A stretch of DNA of 35,425 nt, taken from assembly GCA_011043895.1 (NCBI GenBank), contig DRBZ01000006.1:1-35425 (forward strand), read 5' to 3'. The DNA is from Candidatus Cloacimonadota bacterium (GTDB taxonomy: Bacteria > Cloacimonadota > Cloacimonadia > JGIOTU-2). Both the position numbers and the translations under genes were made by a program. The notes beneath the pieces were generated by a model, which saw only the letters and a program-made list of their open reading frames with translations, was not told the origin of the DNA and made no database searches. The number at the start of each line of letters is the position of its first letter. The stretch's first letter is position 1. Positions 797-14,567 of this stretch are shown here, piece after piece.

Positions 797-3700
797 ATGA
801 AAAAGATTTTGTGTACTCTCGCAGTTTTTATCCTTGCAAATACTGCTCTTTTTGCAGGCAAACATTTTACCTTTAACACAAAAGGTGATGGTATAGACAT
901 TCATTTTACAGATAGCAGAGCAACAGAGATTTTAGAAGAAAAGGTTATATCTACGACTATTACATTACCCTCAATGGATGTTGAAATCATTATCAACGAT
1001 TGTACAATTGCAGAATATTCCACTGATGGTGAACTTCTTTCTACATACAAAGGGAGTGCGGGTCAAAGAATCGCCGTAGCAAATAGTTTTGCATTTCGTG
1101 AACTGATCGGACATACTATCACTATTAAGAATGTAATTTACGATAAAGAAAAGGATATATACTCCGAAATAGTATCTGCAGATATCTCGGTCATCCCAAG
1201 AGGGCAGTTCAATTATCCGGGAAGCATCTCAAGAGTGTATAAACCTGTATATAGAAGTTTGGTAGAAAACTTCGATTCGTCCTATCTGGCTGGACTTCCC
1301 ACTGAGCCATCCAAAATGCTTATTATTTGTCATCAAATTCTGGCAAATTACATTCAGGATTTCATTAACTGGAAAGAAGCAAAGGGTATAGAGTGCCAGG
1401 TAGCAACTCTTGATGAAACCGGCACAACTTCTAATGAAGTAAAGGCATACATTCAGCAGGTATATGATACGTCAGATGTGCCACCGGATTATGTACTCCT
1501 CATCGGAGATGTTGACGATTATTTTGCAGTTCCTTCCTTCTATTTTAGCGCAGAAAATGATGTGTCGGATCATCCATACTCAATGCTTGCAGGTTCTGAT
1601 TATTTTCCTGAGGTAATAGTTGGTAGAATTTCAATCGATGAAGTAAATCAGCTTTGGACAATCATAAACAAAGTTGTATCATATGAAAAAACACCATATG
1701 TAACTGAACCCGAATGGTTGAAAAAAGCGCTTGTGGTAGCTGGAAATTACAGCACAACACCTCCCACGCCAAGTACTCCTGTAAAAGTATCCCGCTGGTT
1801 ACGTGACAAAATGTTGAATTATGGATTTTCTCAGGTTGATACGGTTTTCTATCCTCCCATATATCCAGGCACTTCAGAGATCATCAGCAGAATAAATGCA
1901 GGAATCAGTTTTCTTAATTACCGTGGATGGGGTGACGCCAATGGATGGCATTATCCAGAGTTCCATGTCAGTGACATGACCAGTTTGAGCAACGGCTTAT
2001 TAACCCCAGTTGTGACATCTTTTGTGTGTAATACAGGTGATTTTGCAAATACTTCTGCTGATCCTTGTTTTGGAGAAGCAATCACCCAGCTTGGTACACC
2101 CACCGCTCCTCAGGGAGGAGTTGTTTTTATCGGTCCTTCGGATCTGCACACAAGCACAAAATTAAATAATTCAATATTTTCCGGATTTTATTATGGTTTA
2201 CTCGACGAAGGGATCTATGATTTTGGCTCGGCAGTGCTTCGAGGAAAAGTTGAGCTATATCATAATTTCCCCCTGCAACAAGCACCTGGAGAGCAGGTTG
2301 AATTTTATTTTCATGTATATAATATTCTCGGAGATCCCAGTCTCACTATGTGGACAACGATTCCGGAGGAAATCGATTGCACACTTCCGGGTTCACTGAG
2401 TATCGGGACAAATTATCTGGATATTGCATGTCCAAATCTTGATGATGCTGTTGTTACTGCGATTAAAGATGGTGAGTTCTACAGTGTGGAAATGATTGAA
2501 AATGGACAGACAACATTGGCAATCTCCCCACAATCCGAGGGCACTATGACAATAACAATTACCAGCCCTAATTATATTCCATTCATTCAGGATATAGATG
2601 TTATTCAGGAAACAGTTGATGTTGGTGTACTTAGTTATGATGCTGATCCCGCTCTTGTTGCTGGAAGTACAAGCGATATCAATATAACGCTGAAAAATTA
2701 TGGAACTGGTTCTGCTGGAGGAGTACAGGCAACGCTTTCTTCCAATAGTGATTATGTAAATATCGGAACACCTACACAATCCTTTGGCGATATTGCTGCT
2801 GGGGAAACAGCAGATGGTTCTTATGACGTTACTATGGACGTCGAAACTCCCGATAATGAGGTTATAGAATTTACTCTTGCAATATCTCCTGATAATATAG
2901 CTAAAATCTCTATGTTAACTTCTTCTCTTGTCTTTGAGGTTGATGCAGTTAATGTAGTGACAGATAATGGCTGGCTTATCTCAGGGCAAACTAATGAGAT
3001 CCATGTAACAATAAAAAATATCGGTTCTCTTGATGGAAACAATATTCAAGGAACCTTATCAGTTTACAGCGATGCTGCAACTATGATATCTAACCAAGCA
3101 TCGTTTGGAACTATTACTGCAGGTACTACTGGTCAGGGGACATTTGATGTGGAAATCTCTGCTAACTGCTTCATCGGCAGGAACATTCCTTTTGAGCTGG
3201 TTTTAACCGATGAAGAGGGGAGAATTGACCATGTATATTTTTCCCTGGAAGTAGGTCCTGTAGATACTTCGGCTCCAACCGGACCTGATGCGTATGGGTA
3301 TTATGCCTATGATAGCTATGATGTTGATTATGATGAAGTGCCAACCTACGAGTGGATTGAAATCGACCCGAATGAAGGTGGACTGGGCGAAGTAATTTTG
3401 ATGGTTGATGATGATTCAGAAACCATCGATCTGCCTTTCGATTTTACCTTTTATGGAGAAATTTTCAATGAGATAACTATCTGTTCGAATGGATGGATAT
3501 CTTTTATTACCAATAATTGGACGAATTTCAGAAATTGGGATATTCCTTCAGCCCTAGGACCTTATGGGCAAGTTTGTGCATATTGGGATGATCTTATTGG
3601 AGAAACCTTTACAATCAACGATACAATTTATCATCATGATATGCGGATATGCCATTATTACGATGCAGCACAAAATAGATTTATCATTGAATGGAATGGA

Positions 3701-12465: not shown

Positions 12466-12852
12466 ATGCAATATTTTGATGCAGTTGGCAGGCGTAAAGC
12501 CGCAGTCGCTCGTGTTCGTCTTTCCAAAGGAACTGGAAAGAGAATTATCAATAAAAAACCAATGAAGGAATATTTGAGTAGAGAAACCCTTGAGATGATC
12601 GTTGAAAAACCTTTTGATATTATCGATCAGGCAGACAAATTCGATATGAAAGTCAATGTTCGTGGTGGGGGACTTGCTGGTCAGGCAGGTGCTATCCGCT
12701 TGGGTATCAGTCGAGCGCTCCTGGAGTATGACCCAGAATTGCGGGGATTACTAAAAAAAGCAGGACTCCTTACCCGTGATGCACGAGTAAAAGAACGTAA
12801 GAAATACGGACTCGCCAAAGCACGTAAAGCATATCAATATTCAAAGAGATAA
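12466..12852 (+). CDS. rpsI: 30S ribosomal protein S9
   Basis: 128-residue small-subunit protein beginning directly with the conserved [17 protein letters not shown] block and containing [20 protein letters not shown]. The C-terminal tail ends [11 protein letters not shown]; the last lysine-arginine residues are known to reach the P-site tRNA in bacterial ribosomes and are intact. The residue before Gln is Tyr instead of the Pro found in many phyla; aromatic residues occur at this place in some lineages, so I take this as lineage variation. ATG 12466 is preceded by TTTAGGAGA. It pairs with rplM upstream. Confidence 0.97.
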
Positions 12853-12881
12853 AATATAAATCAATTAATTTCTGAGCTGCA

Positions 12882-12939
12882 AACGGTGTTCGGTTGTCGA
12901 ATATATGCAGTGTCGATGAAGTTAAAATAATAAACCGTT
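12882..12939 (+). promoter_or_regulatory. Possible rpsB mRNA leader structure
   Basis: In the 98-nt gap before rpsB, AACGGT at 12882-12887 can pair with ACCGTT at 12934-12939, whose last base directly touches the GGAGG ribosome site at 12940. Such a fold could present or hide the site. Ribosomal protein S2 is known to regulate its own operon through leader RNA in some bacteria, so autoregulation is a reasonable but unproven reading. The pairing is only 6 bp. Confidence 0.25.
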
Positions 12940-12950
12940 GGAGGACACAC

Positions 12951-13958
12951 ATGAGTGTCGTTGAAATGAAAAATTTACTCGAGGCTGGTGTACACTTTGG
13001 TCATCAGACCCGACGCTGGAATCCAAAGATGAAAAAATATATTTTCATCAAGAGGAACGGCATACACATCATTGATCTCAAACAAACACTTGAAGCTATT
13101 AATCAAGCTTATTATTTTTTTCGAGAACTTGCGGCAAAGGGCAAGAACATTCTGTTTGTTGGTACCAAAAAGCAGGTGTCCGAAGGCATCGAATCCGCTG
13201 CCCAGAAATGTGAAGAATTCTATATCAGTCATCGCTGGTATGGAGGGACATTGACCAATCTGAATACCATTAGAAAGAGTATTGCAAAACTCGATGAGTT
13301 CGAAGAACTAAAAGAGAGTGGAGAGATCAATAAATTTACCAAACTTGAGATACTTCGTATGCAACGTAAATATGATAAAATCCTCAGTGCGCTGGGTGGA
13401 ATTCGAGAAATGGATCAAATTCCATCTGCACTTTTCATTGCAGACATTGTGCATGAGAGAAATGCGGTAAACGAAGCTAAAAAACTCGGTATTCCTATTG
13501 TCGCAATTGTAGATACCAATGGAGATCCTGATGGTATCGATTACATCATTCCAGGCAATGATGATGCAATGAAATCAGTCAATCTCATCTGTGACATTAT
13601 GGCAAATGCAGTAATCGAAGGTAAGAGAATTGCAGCAGAAGGTGGAGATATCTCTGATTTTGAATCTGTCGATAAAGACCAAGAAGTTATCGAAGAAGAA
13701 GCAGAAGCCATAGCTGATGAAGTAGCAGCACCAGAAGAAGAAGTGGAAGTTGAAGAAGCGCTTGAAGAAGTTGTGGAGGTAGAACCAGAAGCGAAAACGA
13801 AAAAGACGGAAGAGAAGAAAGAGGATAAAAAAGAAGAAAAAACTCAAAAGAAGGAAGAGGAACCTGTGGAAAAACGTTTCGAATGCCCCGATTGTGGCAA
13901 AACCTTCTCATCAAAACGTGGACTAAAGATTCATCTTGGTCTTGTCCATCAAAAATAA
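12951..13958 (+). CDS. rpsB: 30S ribosomal protein S2 with charged extension and C-terminal C2H2 zinc finger
   Basis: 335-residue S2; the usual bacterial length is about 230-260. Residues 1 to about 228 are a normal S2: [21 protein letters not shown], the [10 protein letters not shown] block, [11 protein letters not shown], and [20 protein letters not shown]. From about 235 the chain becomes acidic (runs of Glu with Val and Ala), then Lys/Glu-rich (about 280-305), and it ends in [20 protein letters not shown] followed by LGLVHQK. This is a classical C2H2 finger: C312-x2-C315-x12-H328-x4-H333, including the conserved Phe and Leu. The frame is open throughout and tsf follows with its own ribosome site, so this is not an obvious sequencing error. 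The ORF-track start (12894) is too early; ATG 12951 follows GGAGG by 6 nt. Such a finger on bacterial S2 is not something I know as normal. Confidence 0.95.
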
Positions 13959-13973
13959 GGAATTGGAGTAATA

Positions 13974-14567
13974 ATGGAAATAACTGCAAAATTAGTAAAA
14001 GAGTTACGAGATAAAACAGGTGTCGGATTAATGGAGTGCAAGAAAGCACTTAAAGATTCAAATGGAAATCTCGAAGAAGCTATTAAGTTTCTGAGAACAA
14101 GCGGCTTAGTAAAAGCAGAGAAGAAGTCAGAGCGTGAATCCAACGAAGGTATTATCCATGCATATATTCACCCTGGAGCAAAACTTGGAGTGCTGTTAAA
14201 ACTTGCTTGTGAATCTGATTTTGTTGCAAAAACTGATGATTTTGTCGAACTTGCAAACAAGATCGCTATGCACATCGCAGCAACAGATCCACTTGCAATA
14301 TCAGAAGAAGATCTTGATACTAAGCTTGTTGAAGCAGAAAAAGAGATTTATAGAGAAAGAGCTTTGAAAGCAGGAAAACCAGAGAATATAGTTGATAAGA
14401 TCGTTGAAGGTCAGATTAAGAAATACTATACAGATAACTGTCTTTTGAGCCAGCCTTTCATCATGAATGAAGATATGACTGTCAAAGAGCTTATATCTGA
14501 TGCAGTTCTTAAACTTGGTGAAAATATCAATATCAAGGAATTTGCACGTTTCAGCATTGGTAAATAG
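13974..14567 (+). CDS. tsf: Translation elongation factor Ts (short form)
   Basis: 197-residue EF-Ts, the guanine nucleotide exchange factor that recycles EF-Tu. It starts with the UBA-like domain VKELRDKTGVGLMECKKAL, containing the conserved TGVGLMECKKAL motif that contacts EF-Tu, and has the core ACESDFVAKTDDF. The short length corresponds to the compact form with a single dimerisation region, as in Thermus-type EF-Ts, rather than the approximately 280-residue E. coli form. Start at ATG 13974 with TTGGAG 7 nt upstream. It follows rpsB by 15 nt and precedes pyrH by 1 nt, an operon arrangement common in bacteria. Confidence 0.97.
   Translation: MEITAKLVKELRDKTGVGLMECKKALKDSNGNLEEAIKFLRTSGLVKAEKKSERESNEGIIHAYIHPGAKLGVLLKLACESDFVAKTDDFVELANKIAMHIAATDPLAISEEDLDTKLVEAEKEIYRERALKAGKPENIVDKIVEGQIKKYYTDNCLLSQPFIMNEDMTVKELISDAVLKLGENINIKEFARFSIGK

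Follow-up and report, generated by a model that had tools for sequence, protein, structure and literature searches.

A single C2H2 zinc finger usually binds nucleic acid weakly, and fingers of this class bind proteins too. Bacteria have Cys2His2 proteins of their own in Ros/MucR, DNA-binding regulators whose loop is shorter and whose fold is larger. The zinc sites of bacterial ribosomal proteins are, to our knowledge, ribbons or small cysteine clusters. Ribosomal protein uS2, the product of rpsB, lies at the back of the 30S subunit, at the hinge between head and body; it is required for the binding of bS1 and has been proposed to stabilize the Shine-Dalgarno helix (PMC10931766). In Escherichia coli S2, phenylalanine F32 is the place where bS1 docks, while H18, D188, D204 and D205 make up a zinc pocket (PMC4288201).

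The window analysed here, a stretch of 35,425 nucleotides from a Cloacimonadota MAG assembly (65% complete), holds the single S2 match of its source genome. The gene stands in a cluster of apparently ordinary make-up, rplM, rpsI, rpsB, tsf, pyrH, frr (names other than rpsB were assigned by eye), with tsf starting at 13974. The core of the protein fills the whole PF00318 (Ribosomal_S2) profile, positions 1-216 of 216, with 310.7 bits against a cut-off of 26.1, and it matches ribosomal S2 chains in structure comparison. It shares with bacterial uS2 at large the complete core fold, the rpsB-tsf order, the phenylalanine that docks bS1 and the residues of the zinc pocket: positions equivalent to E. 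coli F32, H18, D188, D204 and D205 are invariant in 14 sequences of the family to which the genome belongs. What sets it apart is an addition of some 110 residues beyond the core, with a C2H2 finger at its end. An earlier note on this DNA had claimed such a finger at the end of a 335-residue S2, and this is what the open frame holds, with a zf-C2H2 match above the Pfam cut-off. The tail is acidic and then rich in lysine and glutamate, as had been described; its length had been put at about 75 residues, and some 85 in fact separate core from finger (Table 1). An alternative upstream TTG start, which would make a protein of 354 residues, was rejected: it has no suitably placed Shine-Dalgarno sequence, and in the relatives the protein starts at the position that corresponds to the ATG.

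Table 1. Position of rpsB, of the parts of its product and leader, and of related features named in the text
Feature	Position	Strand	Remarks
rpsB	12951-13958	+	335-residue uS2; ATG 12951, stop 13956-13958
rpsB Shine-Dalgarno GGAGG	12940-12944	+	ahead of ATG 12951
uS2 core, residues 1-224	12951..13622	+	PF00318 match 9-224, E 5e-93
Charged linker, residues 225-309	13623..13877	+	acidic then Lys/Glu-rich, predicted disordered
Classical C2H2 zinc finger, residues 310-335	13878..13955	+	very C-terminus of uS2; PF00096 above cut-off
Conserved rpsB leader RNA	12865..12944	+	nested stems and candidate pseudoknot
Candidate pseudoknot, ACGGT with ACCGT	12883-12887 / 12934-12938	+	2 nt before GGAGG Shine-Dalgarno
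Second S1-domain protein, examples	L154 850-2349; G018:C1:1970168-1971544		

By its spacing, hydrophobic core and predicted fold, the terminal module is a classical C2H2 finger, and zinc binding is predicted from its invariant ligands. The zf-C2H2 model matches residues 310-333 with 26.4 bits in the whole protein (cut-off 25.2) and the isolated finger with 32.0 bits, while some members of the family score slightly under the cut-off, at 22-25 bits. The ligands C312-x2-C315-x12-H328-x4-H333 are those that had been proposed, and the hydrophobic positions (F310, F319, L325) are equally in place. In an alignment of 14 sequences, which covers five named genera with full-length proteins and includes partial members of others, both cysteines, K317, the string S321-K-R-G-L-K-I-H328 and the string G330-L-V-H333 do not vary. 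The invariance of the helix thus goes beyond the residues needed to bind zinc and to form the hydrophobic core. Its surface is strongly basic, and the hydrophobic residues I327, L331 and V332 are also found on the conserved surface. AlphaFold2 models the finger alone as a beta-beta-alpha unit with a pLDDT of 90. When run on the family alignment it returns the S2 fold, a stretch of low confidence at residues 233-306 (pLDDT below 50) and, from about 310 to 335, a finger modelled with confidence, so that core and finger are predicted to be separate folded units joined by disorder, in keeping with the flexible tether that the earlier note had suggested.

The closest structures to the finger model by TM-score are fingers of Tramtrack, CTCF and Kaiso (0.88 to Tramtrack, 2drp); the Foldseek E-values are 0.05 or worse, which is expected for a query of about 30 residues. 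With these TFIIIA/Krueppel-type fingers the module shares ligand spacing, hydrophobic pattern and the predicted beta-beta-alpha fold. It differs from them in being single, in being carried by a bacterial ribosomal protein, and in the residues found at positions 3 and 6 of the helix (G324 and I327), which are uncommon there and which we take to be unusual for base reading; any binding of nucleic acid by it is to be understood as putative. With Ros/MucR it has in common the Cys2His2 ligands and a bacterial host, but the Ros/MucR Pfam model is absent among the 24 families that match the finger at E-values up to 1.

The finger is a trait of the whole family and not a product of chance. It is found on the sole uS2 of 16 of the 17 family genomes, in six genera; in the 17th (G014, 61% complete) rpsB was not detected. 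A profile built from 14 family fingers and searched through the phylum gives 64-79 bits in these 16 genomes, each time as the last part of the S2 frame; one of the matches lies on a 50-residue fragment at a contig edge. The same profile finds the finger in none of 108 other Cloacimonadota genomes: its lone phylum match outside the family (18.5 bits) falls in an unrelated frame of 1057 residues. The Pfam C2H2 model, run across 123 genomes of the phylum, passes its cut-off on these S2 proteins only. With the sampling widened to 387 genomes, of which about 260 lie outside the phylum, matches beyond the family reach at most 23 bits and none is recognizable as S2 by the length of its frame; the clear C2H2 motifs among those weak matches that were inspected are not in S2. 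CxxC occurs in the tail of none of 76 S2 proteins fetched by similarity from other phyla, which thus differ from the window protein, as do those of the other Cloacimonadota, in having no finger. A recent fusion, a chance event or a misassembly can be excluded, because 16 genomes from six genera, each assembled separately, share the finger and because 14 of its 15 invariant amino-acid positions use more than one codon. Of the two origins that had been considered, lineage trait or unusual fusion, the first is therefore retained, with the support of purifying selection described below, and the second is dropped.

As to the tail itself, uS2 commonly carries a long charged extension that holds no domain, both in the phylum and beyond it. 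Those of the nearest outside family (G017) and of the rest of the class span 25-188 residues, are often equally charged, and carry no finger. The comparison with relatives that the earlier note had called for thus gave no refuting outcome inside the family, where the extension and its finger are kept; beyond the family there are tails without finger. This distribution among genomes, considered without a tree, points to a single gain, probably at the root of the family, where the uS2 tail would already have been long and charged.

Elsewhere in the source genome a search for the same finger gave zinc-knuckle-like matches only, at about 22 bits or less and mostly in a prolyl-tRNA-synthetase-like protein, and a search for a phage donor gave weak relatives only. 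The most similar arrangement belongs to an MptE-like protein of a viral contig (L134, about 2001-2066; IMGVR_UViG_3300035698_014170), in which a charged linker also precedes a C-terminal finger, EFICPICNKSFTTDLGLKIHIGRVH. The host protein is unrelated, and no donor is established, because the two fingers are just 59% identical over 22 residues. Two further loci, L140 and L141, likewise have C-terminal fingers. A genome labelled as bacterial (L167 and L175, G150:C28:3625-4371) was also seen to encode proteins in which a signal-like N-terminus is followed by at least six C2H2 fingers; they are possibly a eukaryotic contamination, or an unusual protein.

Purifying selection acts on the finger as strongly as on the S2 core when the whole family is compared, and more strongly within the genus. 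Within the genus of the window, dN/dS is 0.023 for the finger, 0.064 for the core and 0.35 for the linker; family-wide values, which are rough with synonymous sites near saturation, are 0.075, 0.074 and 0.46. More than one codon is used at all but one of the invariant positions, and conservation therefore operates at the level of the protein. The linker aligns poorly in sequence but keeps a length of 83-97 residues (standard deviation 4.4) in 14 family members, to be compared with a standard deviation of 42 for tail length outside the family. That its length is held while its sequence turns over is suggestive, the sequences being related and the comparison hence not amounting to a test. Against this background the idea that the finger is a neutral or vestigial tail, acquired by chance and trimmed off after translation, appears hardly credible: domain-free charged tails are indeed widespread, but selection on the finger matches or exceeds that on the core and all 16 family genomes with rpsB have retained it.

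What, then, would the finger do? Its invariant basic helix surface exceeds the needs of folding, and for this reason it should touch something specific. The explanation that we favour, tentatively and at a little less than an even chance, is that the finger would be a module that binds nucleic acid while it stays on the 30S subunit, close to the uS2/bS1 mRNA platform. With its tether of some 85 residues it would, as an estimate, have a reach of several nanometres from uS2; within that range it might probe mRNA close to the exit side or 16S rRNA in the vicinity, and would supply, next to bS1, a further RNA contact that is basic and folded around zinc. The charge of the helix, the site on the ribosome and the partners that such fingers commonly have all favour RNA as the target, and so does an independent parallel in a Mollicutes MAG (L062, PULR01000002.1). 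There the S2 gene, starting at 3001, codes for 354 residues, and the charged tail of its product has a Rho_N domain (E 1.6e-11) at its end; this domain family is linked to the binding of nucleic acids. Both proteins consist of a uS2 core, a long charged linker and a small C-terminal module; the Mollicutes one differs by its domain and phylum, and is a single sequence. Against a nucleic-acid target count the weak binding that is usual for a lone C2H2 finger, the residues G324 and I327 in its helix, and the capacity of such fingers to bind proteins.

The ribosomal RNA of the family bears no corresponding mark. Five family 16S genes, compared with those of six other Cloacimonadota, show an intact anti-Shine-Dalgarno sequence and scattered differences only, with no family-specific expansion or cluster of changes. 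Loss of the anti-Shine-Dalgarno sequence was discarded as a correlate of the finger, GGATCACCTCCTTT being intact and Shine-Dalgarno-like sites standing ahead of many genes of the window. The finger does not replace bS21, which is present in the family, nor bS1, which is kept. In most of the class a second S1-domain protein, of about 500 residues with five S1 domains and an E. coli-like N-terminus, is found beside bS1; it was not found in the family of the window or in the neighbouring family. A link between its loss and the finger is not supported: the loss is common to the fingerless neighbouring family and to some genomes elsewhere.

The main rival to an RNA target is a protein partner, to which we give a real but clearly lesser chance. 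The finger helix would then be an adaptor that brings a protein to the back of the 30S subunit, for which bS1, other 30S proteins, an assembly factor and RNA polymerase are examples. Such a use has a eukaryotic counterpart: PRMT3 and ZNF277 associate with uS5, which lies next to uS2, and depend on their C2H2 fingers to do so (PMC10216425). The presence of I327, L331 and V332 within the conserved surface would fit this role, as would the conserved N-terminal segment MYE[EK][TS]M of the family bS1. The strongly basic character of the helix speaks against it, and a partner unique to the family was not found, bS1 and bS21 being present on both sides of the family boundary. Returning to an RNA target, a further proposal is that in this one family a eukaryote-type C2H2 finger is a fixed stoichiometric part of the ribosome, a zinc-dependent RNA-reading arm that would select messages or feed back on the rpsB leader; taken as a whole, we consider this unlikely.

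The leader deserves attention of its own. It is common to nearly all Cloacimonadota examined, with stems that show compensatory changes between genera (as judged by eye) and a candidate pseudoknot in which (A/G)CGGTG pairs with AACCGT beside the Shine-Dalgarno sequence. No Rfam model reaches its gathering score anywhere in the window, and within 12840-12970 none matches even at E-values up to 5; the strict leader pattern is absent upstream of 76 rpsB genes from other phyla. It is probably a uS2 autoregulatory leader. In Bacillota, the rpsB genes of a series of loci (L036-L108) have another conserved string about 60 nt upstream, roughly GCGGAGGA..AAACCA..AGGAGG; this may be an S2 leader of another kind.

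It is known that uS2 of E. coli represses rpsB-tsf through the 5' leader (PMC10931766). Accordingly, one may imagine that the finger helps free uS2 to recognize the rpsB leader and to repress the operon that encodes it; the place of the finger on the ribosome would then be secondary. The distance from the pseudoknot strand to the GG of the Shine-Dalgarno sequence, 5-9 nt elsewhere and 4 nt in the neighbouring family, is 2 nt in all 14 fingered genomes, and because both ends of rpsB have changed in the same family this autoregulatory role is a serious alternative. The leader is nevertheless also that of fingerless relatives and hence does not require the finger, and the coincidence amounts to a single lineage event, so that we place this possibility decidedly on the unlikely side.

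Bacterial ribosomes are known to be reservoirs of zinc, and the invariant ligands would suit a finger that chiefly holds or reports the metal. Storage leaves the invariance of the non-ligand residues of the helix (SKRGLKI, GLV) unexplained, and a zinc store or sensor appears quite improbable.

With reference to the architecture as such, a limited literature search returned no published uS2-C2H2 protein, and we could not find described a classical C2H2 finger carried throughout a family on a core protein of the 30S subunit; the architecture appears to be new, built of known parts. The host of the finger is the protein that anchors bS1 and adjoins the Shine-Dalgarno helix, and because of this position the family would offer a natural test of whether bacteria are able to fit the mRNA platform with an RNA- or protein-binding arm, and of whether arms of this kind adjust translation. 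The near-unchanged sequence of the finger suggests that it does a real job on a bacterial ribosome and, as the Rho_N-tailed uS2 of a Mollicutes genome hints, the tail of uS2 may be a recurrent site for the addition of modules.
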